Origin: a virus
IMG/VR virus record: IMGVR_UViG_3300050821_011524
Location: 1 to 39,380 of that record
Strand: one strand, 5' to 3'
DNA length: 39,380 nt
The notes below the pieces were generated by a model. That model worked only from the letters and a program-made list of their open reading frames with translations, was not told where the DNA came from and did no database searches. The position numbers were made by a program, and so were the translations under genes. This document shows, one piece after another, positions 18,101 to 27,891 of this stretch. Position 1 is the first letter of the stretch; every line of letters begins with the position of its first letter.

Positions 18101-19082
18101 CACGAGTGATGTAGCTCTATCTAATGCTGGGGTCGCTCTTACTTCTAGATACATCAAGGTTGTCTACAACAATGGCACCCCAAGTGTTCCCAATTACATC
18201 GTGCTTCAGGAAAATCGTGACTTCACCCTGAATGTCAGTGCTGCTTCGGGACAGACCACAATCACGGCTATCGTTGGTGGGGCTTCTCAGATGCCAATGG
18301 TGTCGGGTGGAGTGTCACTCCCGTTGACGATCACATATTACTACTCAGAGGTCTTTGCGATAAGCACCCAGATTCCCACATGGGTAGACCAATTGGCCAA
18401 CAACCTAGCAGTAACCAAGCACGCAGACGCTGATGTGCTCGTGAAGGCTCAGGTCGCCAGCCCGGTAGACATCACGATGACAGTGACGGTAAGCTCTACA
18501 GCAACAATTTCTACTGTAGACAATCTGGTACGCTCTGCCATCGGTGTCACACTGAATAACGCCAATACCAGTTTGAATCAGGCTCTCCTCGTACAGCAGG
18601 TCATGGCTCAGCCGGGAGTGACTAACGTCAATCTCCCCCTGACCAAGTGTGCGAAGTCTAACGGTGCCTATGATATTGGTTTCGTGATACCTTCCACTAC
18701 TCCTTGGGTGCAGTCTACAGATCCAACGATTTCTCTTTACAAGCAAGTCTACTATGCTCCAGGTGTGCTCCAGAATAGTACCTTAGACTCTGGTGGTCCA
18801 CCCAATGCTTACGTCGGTTTCCTCTATGAGAGCCAACCGTTCGCTAGAGCCTTAAGTCAAGCAGACTTCGATAGTAGAAGCGATGTATCCTTCTATCTGA
18901 CTGCCACAGGAGATATTTGGATTCGCATTCCAGCATATCAGAATTCTCCCAACGATGACTCTTACTTCTGTACCTATCAGGTATGGAATGAAGAAGGAGC
19001 CAAGGACATTACTACGTCTTCCACAGAGTATCTATCACCGGGTAACATCACCATCAATTACATTGTGGGGACAACGAACTGA
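15195..19082 (+). CDS. Baseplate J-like protein (1295 aa)
   Basis: Residues ~358-395 contain RDLFIDPIAIEISNMSVRQW, the N-terminal signature of large-phage baseplate J-like proteins. The J-like core follows at ~505-640: CQTAGSIGTVGAGSI, then TELNSRLAARIKNKELVGV, then YWGQAINTPGIVQATVV. A C-terminal alpha/beta segment at ~1075-1160 (VTNVNLPL) matches the end of such proteins. At 1295 aa it is far longer than T4 gp6 or P2 J because of beta-rich insertions at ~20-330 and ~680-1070. It should form the baseplate wedge ring of a contractile tail, which is the best evidence for a myovirus. Its TGA stop overlaps the next ATG. Confidence 0.75.
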   Translation: MTLLDILTPNVAANSTLSVDVSSLPFQVQVDSTVANVIVQLYNASTALTQSTSLFTVTGSVTTGTFIANEPVTQANSNASANLIGTVTGSGTMMLGTITGTADNNDIWTGTTSGATYTPTATPVGVFEGNISIQNITTPTQAVVIAQGPEVDGNIPSLANIQFYIVFYNDQNLAALISPPSGFSCFKQQSNCMLQWVTPPYQGLLGVRIQISTDPTGVTVPYTQVGNLVNTVSSSSNTLMSTVNTNTVNTPDQNIPGQYTLNYNVTETYLTTTYGSVTISSTYVNSDIFYAVASTVIQDPVSNQVYESQQIGPITCGFVNLSAVNPTDFLALQRKEDIAQRMISQIIRVYPDLDLTPHSENRDLFIDPIAIEISNMSVRQWFSLCCQSIDALAQIDNASGNGFSDPVSSSPVKQQLANAFGLNSNDIQTYINHAFDVAADAAGLTRGGPTTSTGVVTFYTYVQPTVLMTISEGAVVATIADASTASLNFTVAGTAVIDPKFANNLYNAEKGWWSVDVPVFCQTAGSIGTVGAGSIRQTVSGVPQGLSCINQLGTSPAVDTELNSRLAARIKNKELVGVDTGTRYGYWGQAINTPGIVQATVVAAGDDEMLRDWLPADISDSGLVIERPGKHIFGCVDVYTRGTAFSEQVNEVVYNYTQTGLLPLKLIVNSLGVIQFSVTTTEPLYTVLQISVTQTLSGKVVYLGTQLCQISNQNGNASIFINPTEYTYTITNGVSTPTSQTNLQFMTGISTSTVTFALSGRYQDDIYFTPPEQPILSINSVVGPITGAISPSSIQLVYTQDFLLAGGSNQAGDVVQVDSTQTSVQQTTLVFTGVLTDTGPTYLLIDSNMVMTISSNGEIIPPSGFTVTNAYDPVGPPYVFGVDYTISAAGPYLQYYLQLTNNSSILTQPGIPLNGSPSVIVTYYKYILTEHVNLQTDTLTLTGVVPSYLSQDGFIYNTWLPNSYGLTTLTSDVALSNAGVALTSRYIKVVYNNGTPSVPNYIVLQENRDFTLNVSAASGQTTITAIVGGASQMPMVSGGVSLPLTITYYYSEVFAISTQIPTWVDQLANNLAVTKHADADVLVKAQVASPVDITMTVTVSSTATISTVDNLVRSAIGVTLNNANTSLNQALLVQQVMAQPGVTNVNLPLTKCAKSNGAYDIGFVIPSTTPWVQSTDPTISLYKQVYYAPGVLQNSTLDSGGPPNAYVGFLYESQPFARALSQADFDSRSDVSFYLTATGDIWIRIPAYQNSPNDDSYFCTYQVWNEEGAKDITTSSTEYLSPGNITINYIVGTTN

Positions 19083-20140
19083 TGGCCTTCCAAGCAGACA
19101 TCGCCTATCTTCGCAGCAGAGAAGATCTGTTGCGGTACGAAGATGCTCGTTTCAATGCCCTCATGGCTGCGATGGTTAACTTCTACATCGCTAGAAACGA
19201 CAACTGTGTCTGGGGAGAAGTCCTGCGGTCCGTAGCTATAGAACTTGCCAAGGTAGAGTACCAGACAGCCTATGACATCGTAAGTAAGAATCCTAAGTAC
19301 CTGACTCCTCCGGATATCAAGCGTCGTTTCGCTGGTCCTCTCTATATAAACAGCGGAAGTTACCCTGGCACTACACAATATGACATAGACTACAAGAACA
19401 TGGTAGTGGAACTCATTGCTGCTTATAAACAGGGCTCTGTGGTTCCTGCTCTAGAGGAAATCATCTACGCCTACACTGGACAGAATATTGTCGTGCAGGA
19501 ACTTTACAAACTGATCGGTCAGGGATACGATATGACGGATCACAATGGAATTCGCATCTCCATAAACTATGGGAGTGGAAATCCTGCGGATCTCGAGACC
19601 GACATCGTGGATCTTAACCAGATCCAATTGATCACAAACAATCTCTATACGGCTATTGACTTGAACAAGCCCGCGCATATCGGCTTGGACTTCACAACAG
19701 TACAGACAGAGCTGCTCAGCATGGAGCAGATCCTTGATGCAATCACGGATTACCTTCGCATCTACGTTCGAGACACAGAGGGAGGCACCTGGGAGGCCAC
19801 CTTCACGCAGTCCCCGTTCTTCGATCCCACGATACCGGAGACTCAATTGTCCGCTCTAGGAAAAAATGTAGGAAAAGCATTCCCCATAGACTTCGGATCC
19901 ATTCTTACCCCCGTCCAGTACGCGGCTCTCCCCTTTGCCTCGTTCAAACTGGAATATCAGCTGCTCCCCTCGGGAAATTACGGTCTCAACCCGAATAATT
20001 TTCCGGACGTAGCGAGAGTAGACAGTAATGGAGACTACACTGGTGAGATCACCAATGCTCGTGGTCTTCTGGCTCCTCGGATAGACACAGTCTGGGAAAT
20101 TAGCGGTGGCGACACCCTAACCATTTTCAATCTTGTGTAA
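19082..20140 (+). CDS. Tail/baseplate protein of large phages (352 aa)
   Basis: The ATG overlaps the stop of the J-like gene, suggesting coupled translation. Residues ~55-90 read LAKVEYQTAYDIVSKNPKYL followed by TPPDIKRRFAGPLY, and ~115-150 read VVPALEEIIYAYTGQNIVVQ. I recognise this arrangement from conserved proteins that follow baseplate J-like genes in jumbo phages. The role is probably analogous to gpI-type proteins that sit at the baseplate rim and carry fibres. The mixed helical and strand content contrasts with the Thr-rich fibre genes upstream. Confidence 0.6.
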   Translation: MAFQADIAYLRSREDLLRYEDARFNALMAAMVNFYIARNDNCVWGEVLRSVAIELAKVEYQTAYDIVSKNPKYLTPPDIKRRFAGPLYINSGSYPGTTQYDIDYKNMVVELIAAYKQGSVVPALEEIIYAYTGQNIVVQELYKLIGQGYDMTDHNGIRISINYGSGNPADLETDIVDLNQIQLITNNLYTAIDLNKPAHIGLDFTTVQTELLSMEQILDAITDYLRIYVRDTEGGTWEATFTQSPFFDPTIPETQLSALGKNVGKAFPIDFGSILTPVQYAALPFASFKLEYQLLPSGNYGLNPNNFPDVARVDSNGDYTGEITNARGLLAPRIDTVWEISGGDTLTIFNLV

Positions 20141-21523: not shown

Positions 21524-21579
21524 TGTAGAAAGTAGCGAAGTAAAAATAATTCCGCTCAGGAAGAGCATTTTGAGGTAAT

Positions 21580-21660
21580 ATGAATTCAATGAAGCAGACG
21601 ACGCAAATTTGCACCACTATTACATGCACCCAAACAGGTGCTGGTGGCCGTCTGTGTTGA
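21580..21660 (+). CDS. Putative tRNA-operon leader peptide (26 aa)
   Basis: GAGGT lies five bases before the ATG. The 26-codon ORF contains the uninterrupted run QTTQICTTITCTQT (codons 6-19, 21595-21636): seven Thr, three Gln, two Ile, two Cys. These are exactly the isotypes of the six tRNA genes that follow (Ile-GAT, Thr-CGT, Thr-TGT, Thr-GGT, Gln-TTG, Cys-GCA). Codon use covers all four Thr codons (ACG twice, ACA twice, ACC twice, ACT once), CAA twice, CAG once, ATT twice and TGC twice, so each tRNA has at least two cognate codons. The remainder (GAGGRLC) is coded by bases that form arm 2 of the competing hairpins. The peptide itself probably has no function; its translation is the signal. 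Confidence 0.75.
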   Translation: MNSMKQTTQICTTITCTQTGAGGRLC

Positions 21661-21712
21661 AGTAGAGAGAAATCTCATACCAGACAGCCTCCTAAACAAG
21701 GGAGGCATTTTT
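21595..21712 (+). promoter_or_regulatory. Transcription attenuator with competing hairpins
   Basis: Three mutually exclusive pairings can be drawn. Arms 1:2: CAGACG (21595-21600), CACCA (21612-21616) and GCACC (21626-21630) pair in nested order with CGTCTG (21649-21654), TGGTG (21642-21646) and GGTGC (21637-21641). Arms 2:3: 21643-21654 pairs with 21681-21692 at 10 of 12 positions, including the whole 5' arm of the terminator. Arms 3:4: the terminator itself. Segment GGTGGC (21643-21648) mimics terminator arm 4, GGAGGC (21701-21706), with one mismatch. A ribosome stalled on the early cognate codons would cover arm 1 and favour the antiterminator; a ribosome reaching the stop at 21658 would mask arm 2 and allow termination. 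The folding is by hand, without energy calculation. Confidence 0.7.
21687..21712 (+). terminator. Intrinsic terminator of the tRNA attenuator
   Basis: GCCTCC (21687-21692) pairs perfectly with GGAGGC (21701-21706), extended by a T-G pair, around a loop of about six bases, and is followed by ATTTTTATT. It ends 6-12 bases before the next ATG, so it must be conditional for that gene and the tRNAs to be expressed from this side. The 3' arm also contains the only GGAGG upstream of the next gene, so the hairpin may block translation too. Confidence 0.75.
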
Positions 21713-21717
21713 ATTGT

Positions 21718-22068
21718 ATGGCCCATTTTAGCGAGCACTGTAGAGACTGTGAACGGATTCTAGGAAATCGATGTGAGAACGTCAACCACTGGATGGATGC
21801 AGAGTTTGTGAGGTTCGGTCCTCTGCATAGATTCTCTAGGCACCACTCGCAGGGAGTAGAAGAGGCGGGAGAGTTGTTTGGGCCTCTAGGACGCAAGGCA
21901 GCGATGATCCATATCCTGAAGGATTGTGGGTGGATCCCTAGGACAAGCGACTGGGCTGATGGACAGACGGTTGATAGTCTGGGAATAAAAGTGGGAAGCC
22001 GATTCAATGGCTATTGGGATTCCTTTGAGTTTGAAGAGGCAGCGAAGAAGTTAGTGAACGGCGGATAG
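21718..22068 (+). CDS. Small protein of the tRNA operon (116 aa)
   Basis: This is the first gene after the attenuator. The only upstream Shine-Dalgarno candidate, GGAGG at 21701-21705, is 12 bases away and inside the terminator stem. The sequence shows conserved-looking His/Trp features: NHWMDAEFVRFGPLHRFSRH, then HSQGVEEAGELFG. This layout (W-x-D ... HR ... HHxxG ... FG) resembles small phage and bacterial proteins I recall as DUF6915-like, of unknown function. The last ten bases, including the TAG stop, lie inside the tRNA-Ile gene. Confidence 0.55.
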   Translation: MAHFSEHCRDCERILGNRCENVNHWMDAEFVRFGPLHRFSRHHSQGVEEAGELFGPLGRKAAMIHILKDCGWIPRTSDWADGQTVDSLGIKVGSRFNGYWDSFEFEEAAKKLVNGG

Positions 22069-22134
22069 CTCAGTTGGTAGAGCAGACCCTTGATAAGGGT
22101 CAGGTCGGGAGTTCAAAGCTCTCTCCGCCGACCA
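22059..22134 (+). tRNA. tRNA-Ile (GAT)
   Basis: A 76-nt cloverleaf: acceptor stem CGGCGGA/TCCGCCG, anticodon stem GACCC/GGGTC with loop TTGATAA (anticodon GAT), T arm with TTCAAAG loop, discriminator A and encoded CCA. Positions 8-10 are TAG, which is also the stop codon of the upstream gene. Confidence 0.93.
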
Positions 22135-22160: not shown

Positions 22161-22236
22161 GCTAGCGTAGCTCAGTTGGTAGAGCACCTGACCCGTAATC
22201 AGGATGTCACCAGTTCGATCCTGGTCGCTAGCTCCA
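22161..22236 (+). tRNA. tRNA-Thr (CGT) with C33
   Basis: Acceptor stem GCTAGCG/CGCTAGC, D arm GCTCAGTTGGTAGAGC, anticodon stem CCTGA/TCAGG, loop CCCGTAA, T arm ACCAG/CTGGT, discriminator T, encoded CCA. Anticodon CGT reads ACG. The base before the anticodon is C instead of the almost universal T33, which could weaken decoding or alter recognition of the loop. The discriminator T is shared with the other two Thr tRNAs. Confidence 0.88.
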
Positions 22237-22253: not shown

Positions 22254-22329
22254 GCTACCGTAGCTCAGCTGGTAGAGCATCTGATTTGTAATCAGAGGGC
22301 CGGGGGTTCAAATCCCTCCGGTAGCTCCA
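22254..22329 (+). tRNA. tRNA-Thr (TGT)
   Basis: Acceptor stem GCTACCG/CGGTAGC, anticodon stem TCTGA/TCAGA with loop TTTGTAA (anticodon TGT, reading ACA and probably ACG), T arm with TTCAAAT loop, discriminator T, encoded CCA. It is similar in body to the CGT tRNA 17 bases upstream, which suggests duplication. Confidence 0.93.
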
Positions 22330-22760: not shown

Positions 22761-22860
22761 TGAGCAGAGGAAGAATAGGTATTTGGTTATAGCAATTGCC
22801 TACTTCATCATCGGATTCTTCGTAGGTGTAGGGGTTGCTGCATATTGTATGCCACGATAG
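22750..22860 (+). CDS. Tiny membrane protein ending inside a tRNA gene (36 aa)
   Basis: The ATG at 22750 overlaps the end of the previous gene. After a charged start MLSDEQRKNRYLV, one transmembrane helix follows (IAIAYFIIGFFVGVGVAAY), then CMPR. The last ten bases and the TAG stop are the first ten bases of tRNA-Thr(GGT), the stop being tRNA positions 8-10. The coherent charged-then-hydrophobic sequence supports a real gene despite its size. Confidence 0.45.
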   Translation: MLSDEQRKNRYLVIAIAYFIIGFFVGVGVAAYCMPR

Positions 22861-22926
22861 CTCAGTTGGTAGAGCAATGTCTTGGTAAGACATAGGTCAT
22901 CGGTTCAATCCCGATTCGTGGCTCCA
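22851..22926 (+). tRNA. tRNA-Thr (GGT)
   Basis: Acceptor stem GCCACGA/TCGTGGC, D arm GCTCAGTTGGTAGAGC, anticodon stem ATGTC/GACAT with loop TTGGTAA (anticodon GGT, reading ACC and ACT), T arm ATCGG/CCGAT, discriminator T, encoded CCA. With the CGT and TGT tRNAs it completes phage-encoded reading of all four Thr codons. Confidence 0.93.
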
Positions 22927-23651: not shown

Positions 23652-23725
23652 TCCGATGTCGTTCAATGGTAGGACATGGGCCTTTGGATCCCAGAATGGT
23701 GGTTCGAATCCACCCGTCGGAGCCA
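23652..23725 (+). tRNA. tRNA-Gln (TTG)
   Basis: Acceptor stem TCCGATG/CGTCGGA (one T-G pair), anticodon arm TGGGC-CTTTGGA-TCCCA with anticodon TTG and a mismatch at the loop-closing pair, T arm GGTGG/CCACC, discriminator G as in Gln tRNAs, encoded CCA. Length 74 nt. Confidence 0.9.
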
Positions 23726-24331: not shown

Positions 24332-24424
24332 GCACCTGTGGCGAAGTGGCTTAACGCGGTGGTCTGCAAAACCACTATAGGGGTCAAACCTCGATCGCTG
24401 GTTCAAATCCAGTCAGGTGCTCCA
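24332..24424 (+). tRNA. tRNA-Cys (GCA) with long variable arm
   Basis: 93 nt. Acceptor stem GCACCTG/CAGGTGC; a 3-bp D stem GCG/CGC with an 11-nt loop; anticodon stem GTGGT/ACCAC with loop CTGCAAA (anticodon GCA); a 21-nt variable region able to form a GGGG/CCTC hairpin; T arm GCTGG/CCAGT; discriminator T; encoded CCA. The GCA anticodon and T73 are Cys identity elements. The long variable arm and 3-bp D stem are class II features normally found in Leu, Ser and bacterial Tyr tRNAs, so the molecule is a hybrid. Confidence 0.85.
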
Positions 24425-26514: not shown

Positions 26515-27891
26515 ATGGCTACAACAACTGCTTCTGCCGTGACTGTCTTAGAGATCAAACGCTATATTGCAGTTGATCCGAAGAACAATAACAACAAGTA
26601 CTGGCAGTACGAACGGCTGAGCACGATAGTCTCCGAACCTGGAAAGAAAGGTGTCATGGAGACCGGTGACGTCCGCATCACTTGGGGTCGCGTGGGTTGT
26701 GACAAACCGGACAGCCAACTTATCATGTTCGGGGATGGTAAAGTCCTCGCCTCCAAAATCAAGTCCAAGACCAACAAGCCAGCCGGGGAGCCTTCCTACA
26801 CGGAAGTGATCATTGTTGGCTCCGGTAATGTAGGTCATAGAGACAATAGCAGCAGCCAGTCACTCGCCAAAGAGGAAGTGAAGCGGCGTGCGGTCGACGA
26901 GATCGCGGGTAGCTGCAAGATCACGGCGGAATTGGTTCGCAAACTCGCGGAAGCCAACAAGCACGAACTCATCGTTGCCACAGGCGGCAAGATGAACATC
27001 GATCTGGAGACGGGCATCATCAGCACCGCCATGGGCGTGGTCACGCTGGATGCTGTGAAGTCTGCCCGTACCCTTCTGGACCAGATGGCTCCCTACGTCA
27101 GCAGCAATAACACGGACAATGACACCTATGCCAAGATGCTAGGTGACTATCTCCGGTTGGTTCCTCAGCAGACTCCGGCGCGGCGAGGATGGCACACTAC
27201 ATTTATCGTTCTTGACAAGCAGACTTCCTTGCTCGATCAGCTGGAAGCTTCTATCGAGATGGCTGAGAAGCGCGTGGTGGATGCCACCAAGGCGGCAAAT
27301 GGAGGCGTGGTTCCCAAGTTCTTCGAAGTGAAGATGAAACTGGTTGACGACTCTAAGGTCTGGGACAAGGTCAAGAAGATGTTCTATGACACTGTCAACC
27401 ACGGTCACACGTCTGCAGCTTTGAAGCCGGTTCGGGTGTACGAGATTGAGATTCCTCACATGGCCCAGGCTTTCGAAGCTGACGGTCGCAAGGTGGGAAA
27501 CGTGAAGCTCTTGTGGCACGGCACTCGTATGTTCAACGTGCTGTCCATCCTGAAGCGTGGATTCGTTCTGCCCAACCAGCTGAGCACGATGCAGATGACC
27601 GGTGCGATGTATGGTCCCGGACTGTACTTCTCTGACCAGAGCACCAAGTCGCTGAACTACAGCTACGGGTACTGGGACGGTGGGAGCCGGGACAACAACT
27701 GCTACATGTTCTTGGTGGATGTAGCTATGGGTCGTGAGTATGTTCCTAGCAGTTCGGGCAATGGCAAACGGTCAGGCTATGACTCTTGCCACGCAGTACC
27801 GGGTCGCAGCGGTATCCGGAACGACGAGCAGATTGTCTATCGCACTTCACAGGCCAACATTCGGTATCTGGTTGAGTTCAACAACCGGTAG
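26515..27891 (+). CDS. WGR/PARP-type poly(ADP-ribose) polymerase (458 aa)
   Basis: A complete PARP-like protein that would transfer ADP-ribose from NAD+ to protein or nucleic acid targets. Residues ~27-75 resemble a WGR domain (NKYWQYERL ... VRITWGRVG), the DNA-end-sensing module of PARPs. A helical region at ~200-270 (YLRLVPQQTPARRGWHTTFI, then SLLDQLEASIEMAEKRVVDA) corresponds to the PARP regulatory helices. The catalytic domain has all three H-Y-E positions: His335 in LLWHGTR, Tyr371 in MYGPGLYFSD and Glu438 in RNDEQIVY. Glu in the third position is typical of chain-forming PARPs. It starts from a leaderless-type promoter just after a terminator. The gene is somewhat richer in G and C at third positions by eye than its neighbours, so recent transfer is possible. 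Confidence 0.85.
   Translation: MATTTASAVTVLEIKRYIAVDPKNNNNKYWQYERLSTIVSEPGKKGVMETGDVRITWGRVGCDKPDSQLIMFGDGKVLASKIKSKTNKPAGEPSYTEVIIVGSGNVGHRDNSSSQSLAKEEVKRRAVDEIAGSCKITAELVRKLAEANKHELIVATGGKMNIDLETGIISTAMGVVTLDAVKSARTLLDQMAPYVSSNNTDNDTYAKMLGDYLRLVPQQTPARRGWHTTFIVLDKQTSLLDQLEASIEMAEKRVVDATKAANGGVVPKFFEVKMKLVDDSKVWDKVKKMFYDTVNHGHTSAALKPVRVYEIEIPHMAQAFEADGRKVGNVKLLWHGTRMFNVLSILKRGFVLPNQLSTMQMTGAMYGPGLYFSDQSTKSLNYSYGYWDGGSRDNNCYMFLVDVAMGREYVPSSSGNGKRSGYDSCHAVPGRSGIRNDEQIVYRTSQANIRYLVEFNNR

Follow-up and report, generated by a model that had tools for sequence, protein, structure and literature searches.

Why phages carry tRNA genes has been debated for decades, with codon compensation set against the replacement of tRNAs destroyed by the host. 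The window (by which we mean the whole stretch of DNA analysed here, 39,380 nucleotides, a 39-kb IMG/VR virus record) puts this question in a particular form: ahead of its tRNA cluster lies a short open reading frame (ORF) made up largely of the codons that these very tRNAs read. What does such an ORF do? Judging from the sequence, we consider it very probable that it encodes the leader peptide of a ribosome-mediated transcription attenuator, which controls the phage tRNA operon and senses the supply of the tRNAs encoded in it. We hold this view above all because of comparative evidence, as such leaders recur and are rewritten according to the tRNA set.

The leader ORF and the tRNA cluster of the window

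The ORF at 21580-21660 (plus strand; 26 codons and TGA, MNSMKQTTQICTTITCTQTGAGGRLC) is closely preceded by an in-frame stop codon and has a ribosome binding site, GAGGT, at 21572-21576 (plus strand). Its codons 6-19 (21595-21636, plus strand; CAG, ACG, ACG, CAA, ATT, TGC, ACC, ACT, ATT, ACA, TGC, ACC, CAA, ACA) specify Gln, Thr, Ile or Cys only, 14 in succession, and contain all four Thr codons. The ORF with its ribosome site, the uninterrupted run and the full range of Thr codons had been described in the original prediction and were borne out when the sequence was read again. Six tRNA genes lie downstream of the leader, all found on the plus strand by tRNA search: tRNA-Ile(GAU) at 22059-22134, tRNA-Thr(CGU) at 22161-22236, tRNA-Thr(UGU) at 22254-22329, tRNA-Thr(GGU) at 22851-22926, tRNA-Gln(UUG) at 23652-23725 and tRNA-Cys(GCA) at 24332-24424. 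The leader contains cognate codons for 6/6 of these anticodons, and 15 of 25 codons are cognate. The window has no tRNAs besides these; the claim that there are six and no others is valid for the cluster and the window, but not for the genome, because the record is a fragment. The tRNA-Cys (93 nt) has a long, class II-like variable arm and U73, which is unusual for tRNA-Cys. Shortly 3' of the cluster, a PARP-type ADP-ribosyltransferase (PF00644, E 6e-26) is encoded at 26515-27888.

Of the runs of Ile, Thr, Gln and Cys in any of the six frames of the window, that of the leader is the longest with its 14 residues, the runner-up having 7, and in 200 third-order Markov simulations of the window such a run never exceeded 10. 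Together with the permutation tests described below, these simulations rule out chance or low complexity as the source of the leader's composition. A degenerate DNA pattern of the window peptide had no match in viral contigs, as is expected if composition alone is conserved. No consensus promoter was found directly upstream of the window leader.

Two features that had gone unmentioned in the original prediction lie between the leader and the first tRNA. An intrinsic terminator (21687-21713, plus strand, with the hairpin at 21687-21706 and ATTTTTATT following the stem), recognized by sequence and folding, begins 26 nt past the leader stop codon and has the stem GCCTCC/GGGAGGC and the T-rich tail ATTTTTA. 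The first gene after it (21718-22068, plus strand) encodes a DUF6915 protein and overlaps tRNA-Ile with its 3' end; a homologue occupies the same place in phage G001 (locus L003). Alignment of the DUF6915 region revealed nothing beyond these same two loci, and no leader was found with the DUF6915 relatives in Streptomyces phages or in T4. The tail protein encoded at 19082-20137 of the window had no relatives among the sequences searched.

Folding predicts three further segments on the plus strand. Segment 1 (21592-21603, AAGCAGACGACG) pairs in the ribosome-free fold with segment 2 (21643-21654, GGTGGCCGTCTG), which lies within the 3' end of the leader ORF and is the predicted 5' half of an antiterminator. 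Its predicted 3' half, segment 3 (21681-21692, CAGACAGCCTCC), overlaps the 5' arm of the terminator. The computed energy of the 2:3 duplex is -19.3 kcal/mol, and the antiterminator scored better than those of shuffled ORFs (p=0.007). With the A site of a model ribosome at any of codons 6-19 the antiterminator core formed, in shortened form at codon 19; with the A site at codon 20, the first non-cognate codon, the antiterminator shrank, and it was lost by codon 23. The boundary of antiterminator freedom lies exactly after codon 19, and the cognate run therefore spans the positions where a stall would rescue transcription. At equilibrium the terminator wins once it is fully made, so that the switch would have to be kinetic. 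Known attenuators likewise switch kinetically, and segments 1 and 2 pair in classical leaders. The protector hairpin 1:2 is seen in the window fold; across the leaders described below, the ribosome-free state favours the antiterminator on average. The likeness to the thr, trp and his leaders that had been drawn earlier is matched in the sequence by a terminator, a predicted antiterminator pairing and the placement of the codons.

Leaders and tRNA sets in huge phages

The DUF6915 homologue led to G001, a 455-kb huge phage with 64 tRNA matches; its tRNA clusters are separate and sorted by amino acid. A leader was found upstream of every one of six clusters: MNMTSQTRTTTSTQRITTATTGGFTFEDGWDG for the Ile/Thr/Gln operon, MNFNFTNAGWQTGAVGAVAAVCEAEGIVAAGAADSVPSEGWDD for Val/Gly/Ala/Cys/Asp/Glu, MNRVFLASLRLYSYLSGGFGERVRWRGW for Tyr/Leu, MTLMRPTPTFRPCTPTVRGGIGHTL for Pro/Met/Phe, MVRIHALSSSSSSSRSGSGGVGVCL for Ser/Leu(UAA) and MTFMTAKSSRKHQRRNNRWFGTGLFSEGWGA for Trp/Gln/His/Arg/Asn/Lys. 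Promoter-like sequences occur at all six operons (TTGACA-type with an extended -10 in five), and 5/6 leaders have a canonical terminator. Whether scored on codon counts, fractions, observed/expected values or anticodon coverage, the true pairing of leaders with operons was the best of 720 permutations.

A conserved protein of the G001 Pro/Met/Phe operon, which had no Pfam match and which we read as RNA-ligase-like, extended the search to 32 huge-phage loci, many with tRNAs nearby. tRNA clusters were taken from ten records, and leaders were found for the sorted clusters in these. The main set comprises 32 leaders from 11 records; one leader from G003 and an independent second set of 14 from Tunturi_5, LR756502 and LR745206 bring the total to 47 leaders from 15 records of huge phages. 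A single genome has as many as six, and every leader is rich in the codons of its own cluster.

The groupings seen were Ser; Leu+Tyr; Pro+Met+Phe; Ala/Val/Gly/Asp/Glu/Cys; Lys/Arg/His/Asn/Gln/Trp; and Gln only (leader QQQQQQQ). tRNAs are grouped differently between phages, and the leaders differ to match. In G009, MKATFTTRTHTATTMSVRATAFAGGIDIVIDTIAATAAAA precedes an Ala/Cys/Asp/Thr cluster, MRNVNYNTANILSAISLPSLPLPATLSGLRLPPLR a Pro/Leu cluster (with Ile UAU) and MTNVANKRNGNTARCARGNRFVTFNWCGSRFNGRVKRG a mixed cluster, and the G003 leader MKNVLLSTPSSSPLTVVGLPLSPSSLPSLLS belongs to a Pro/Leu/Ser cluster. Examples from LR756502 and LR745206 (635-642 kb) are MTTSFQQQQQQQINRTD for four Gln tRNAs, MRTINKHKHFSKLNKWFSNHRFEAKAFC for Phe/His/Trp/Lys and MKTMNLNMNLNTLTVVNNTLCIRPCEGFDLFNDL for Asn/Leu/Val/Ile/Thr/Met. 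The cultured phage Tunturi_5 (PP885688; host Tunturiibacter psychrotolerans X4BP1) has three leader-bearing tRNA operons with terminators, among them Leu/Cys/Tyr/Ser with the leader MKTLCLSSYCLSSSLSLSDGWDLRTGRDADMI; its predicted leaders are located at about 231156-231254, 239222-239335 and 251573-251722, each closely followed by its terminator. The Cys codons of the window leader go with a tRNA-Cys gene; G001-type Ile/Thr/Gln clusters are without tRNA-Cys. The match extends to single codons. UUA is present only in two leaders, whose operons both carry tRNA-Leu(UAA), and AUA only in three, two of whose operons carry tRNA-Ile(UAU); the operon of the third, the Ser cluster of G001, probably carries tRNA-Ile(UAU) as well, misread by ARAGORN.

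In the main set, the codon fraction for a leader's own operon was typically 0.3-0.8, compared with ~0.1 for the other operons of the same phage. Within-phage permutation (32 leaders, 11 records) gave an observed match of 12.56 against a null mean of 5.98 (sd 0.94), with 0/100,000 permutations as high, and the true pairing ranked first in 8/8 main-set phages with at least two operons. As a control for selection bias, the best of all ATG ORFs per region was scored against own and foreign operons; with this bias removed, 0/50,000 shuffles reached the observed match and the ranks were the same. The true pairing ranked 1/6, 1/720 and 1/120 in Tunturi_5, LR756502 and LR745206, respectively, and came first among all permutations in 11/11 phages tested. 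The check proposed earlier was whether, among related phages, the codons of the leader vary along with the tRNA isotypes; they did so strongly, every permutation rank being the first. A tRNA set kept without its leader, named beforehand as counterevidence, did not occur among the amino-acid-sorted clusters examined.

A canonical intrinsic terminator follows 25 of the 32 main-set leaders, the window included; the seven without a canonical U-tract terminator comprise every G009 leader (three) and, in four phages, the Pro/Met/Phe leader. Stop codon and terminator are mostly 20-26 nt apart in the main set, and in the second set a terminator lies 17-33 nt past the stop codon in 14/14 leaders. The pairing between the 3' end of the leader and the 5' arm of the terminator beat shuffled ORFs (p<0.05) in 25/32 main-set leaders, and in 24/25 of those with a canonical terminator; in the AT-rich second set it did so in only 4/14. 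The predicted sequestering of the terminator arm fell from 0.65 for a ribosome placed at cognate codons to 0.12 for one at the stop codon, a difference that is partly built into the masking. Many leaders were predicted to form the antiterminator even when no ribosome was present (mean 0.68). The position of cognate codons, which is less open to this masking artefact, was compared in 25 leaders: 298/530 codons (56%) before the point of antiterminator loss were cognate versus 43/226 (19%) after it, and the cognate fraction was higher upstream in 25/25 leaders (Fisher p about 4e-22; Wilcoxon 6e-8).

Less certain cases in two genomes stand outside the 47 leaders. A mini-ORF, MNKPYYKRYYAKA, precedes Lys/Lys/Tyr tRNA genes in Xanthomonas phage XacN1 (AP018399, L088:3429-3470), and another, MRFFTTTRTRTAGLTRKG, precedes three Thr tRNA genes in LR745208 (L085, L086, L087). 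These have cognate codons and no obvious intrinsic terminator, and they perhaps use another output mechanism. Long unsorted tRNA arrays of huge phages (L023, L034, L039, L044) and T4 yielded no convincing leader, the search being limited in some by short flanks; as several phages with unsorted arrays have none, the device is not universal. In Daubenski, which has no sorted cluster, the composition score alone put two ORFs at p about 8e-4. Such false positives mean that the composition score by itself is no proof, and we therefore put the weight on permutation tests, terminators and covariation.

Several features were observed in and around these operons. A class A RNase P RNA gene (RF00010, 167-208 bits) lies inside the Val/Gly/Ala/Asp/Glu/Cys operon in 5/5 huge phages scanned (L008:6129-6503; L052:9812-10132; L056:8708-9030; L058:6419-6717, minus strand; L066:9610-9960), which suggests that the phages supply this tRNA-processing ribozyme themselves, under the leader of that operon. 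Directly before the RNA-ligase-like gene in a G001 tRNA operon lies a gene for an RF-1-type release factor (L009:9758-11019; related loci L016-L047). tRNA-like genes with a CUA anticodon (called Pyl) occur, one to three each, in several of these phages (L020, L024, L027, L051, L059, L007); those in L007 are upstream of the Ile/Thr/Gln cluster, and in G001 one adjoins a tRNA-like gene with a gcaa anticodon loop. They are possibly amber suppressor tRNAs involved in stop-codon recoding. A C-terminal E(D)GW(D/G) motif is common to otherwise different leaders of G001 (L007 reverse complement, L008, L011) and L059. It falls outside the regulatory codons and suggests either that these leaders share an ancestor or that their final codons have a function.

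Proposed mechanism, trigger and alternatives

The ORF, the content and placement of its codons, the terminator, the complementarity and the covariation across phages are seen in the sequences; from these we infer that the leader is translated, that ribosomes stall in it and that antitermination controls the operon in vivo. RNA polymerase would transcribe the leader during its translation by a ribosome. With Gln, Thr, Ile and Cys tRNAs plentiful and charged, the ribosome would reach the stop codon and cover segment 2; the terminator (3:4) would then form, leaving the tRNA genes off. If any one of these tRNAs were scarce, the ribosome would stall within codons 6-19, segment 2 would pair with segment 3, no terminator would form, and the DUF6915 gene and the Ile/Thr/Gln/Cys tRNA genes would be expressed. 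Huge phages would have up to six such units per genome, one per tRNA group.

The usual trigger would be a loss of host tRNAs through depletion or cleavage, as anticodon nucleases could bring about. Phage tRNAs have been proposed to replace host tRNAs lost to anticodon-nuclease cleavage (PMC10264068; jumbo-phage review PMC7824862), in papers in which a search for leader and attenuation terms gave no match, and replacing cleaved host tRNAs is likely the purpose of the operons described here. The replacement tRNAs are sometimes accompanied by genes for repair or processing (RF-1-type release factor, RtcB, RNA-ligase-like protein, RNase P RNA). We are inclined to think that the leaders act as modular codon-supply sensors, each of which would keep testing one host tRNA group throughout infection and release the exact replacements on depletion; the tRNA supply would then be an inducible counter-defence and not a constitutive codon compensation.

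The architecture is inherently one of negative feedback on tRNA supply, and clusters with many tRNA copies would need such control. The leader could accordingly be a homeostatic valve, through which the phage's own tRNAs, as they accumulate, speed translation of the leader and close the operon, host defence playing no part. We take this to be a real possibility while leaning away from it; it is also compatible with depletion sensing, being the same circuit viewed from the product side.

The same attenuator might instead respond to amino-acid starvation, that is, to uncharged tRNA generally as in the thr and his operons, and not to tRNA loss. The leader alone cannot distinguish uncharged from absent tRNA, and the known leaders of such design sense amino acids (for example PMC1183508). 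However, the product of the operon is tRNA, which gives no relief from amino-acid starvation. Unrelated amino acids are grouped and isoacceptors of one amino acid are split: tRNA-Leu(UAA) lies in a different operon from the remaining Leu tRNAs, the leader of that operon alone containing UUA, and the same applies to Ile(UAU). Moreover, some operons contain translation-repair genes (RF-1-type release factor, RNA-ligase-like protein, RtcB). Because of the product, the mixing of amino acids with splitting of isoacceptors, and the repair and processing genes, we favour tRNA depletion as the signal and consider starvation unlikely.

Control of the output could also be translational or Rho-dependent, as the leaders of LR745208 and XacN1 are without evident U-tract terminators and some main-set terminators are weak. 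Intrinsic terminators at a constant distance in 25/32 and 14/14 leaders argue against this, as does the fact that the regulated genes are mostly tRNAs and hence untranslated, and we regard intrinsic termination as the likely output and the alternative as quite improbable. We give hardly any credence to the ORF being a functional small peptide of coincidental or low-complexity composition: the leaders have some low-complexity character and one in Tunturi_5 is annotated as a hypothetical protein (gp308), but the codon run has no constant sequence, varies with the tRNA set across 15 phages, and the permutation tests contradict this explanation. A T-box-like element, which would also exert tRNA-charging control through a terminator/antiterminator switch and would sense tRNA directly without translation, is just as implausible, since T-boxes need no codon runs in an ORF; this identity was rejected because Rfam scans of the window and of the loci of ten relatives gave no T-box match, and hence neither a conserved stem I specifier loop nor a T-box antiterminator sequence.

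Comparison with known attenuators

The earlier remark that no description of a phage tRNA operon regulated in this way was known agrees with the open full-text papers searched, in which attenuation of tRNA operons through anticodon-matching leaders did not turn up. Leaders that read the codons of their own tRNAs would amount to built-in evidence that tRNA supply is sensed in infection and that tRNA expression is conditional. They would form a natural family of modular sensors, each specific to certain codons, and provide a sequence signature for finding regulated tRNA operons, and the cultured phage Tunturi_5 makes the system directly testable.

The T-box riboswitch, like the design proposed here, couples tRNA charging to transcription termination before translation-related genes, but its RNA binds the tRNA directly and there is no leader peptide. 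In the E. coli pheST attenuator, a leader with Phe codons controls an aminoacyl-tRNA synthetase. The use of leader codons and attenuation is the same, and the pheST target is part of the charging machinery; in contrast to this host gene, which responds to one amino acid, the targets here are phage tRNA operons. Ribosome-mediated attenuation and multivalent leaders are already known, thrL and ilvL sensing more than one amino acid. Like thrL, hisL, trpL and ilvL, the phage units have a short leader ORF with regulatory codons, a predicted antiterminator over the 5' arm of a terminator, and the terminator before the operon. Unlike these, they are found in phages, with several units per genome, their leader codons match the operon's anticodons, even at the level of single isoacceptors, and the codon set can serve at least ten anticodons, and the operon products are tRNAs, not biosynthetic enzymes. 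These products replenish what the regulatory codons read, the cognate tRNAs, and in this the phage operons depart from the known members of the attenuator class.
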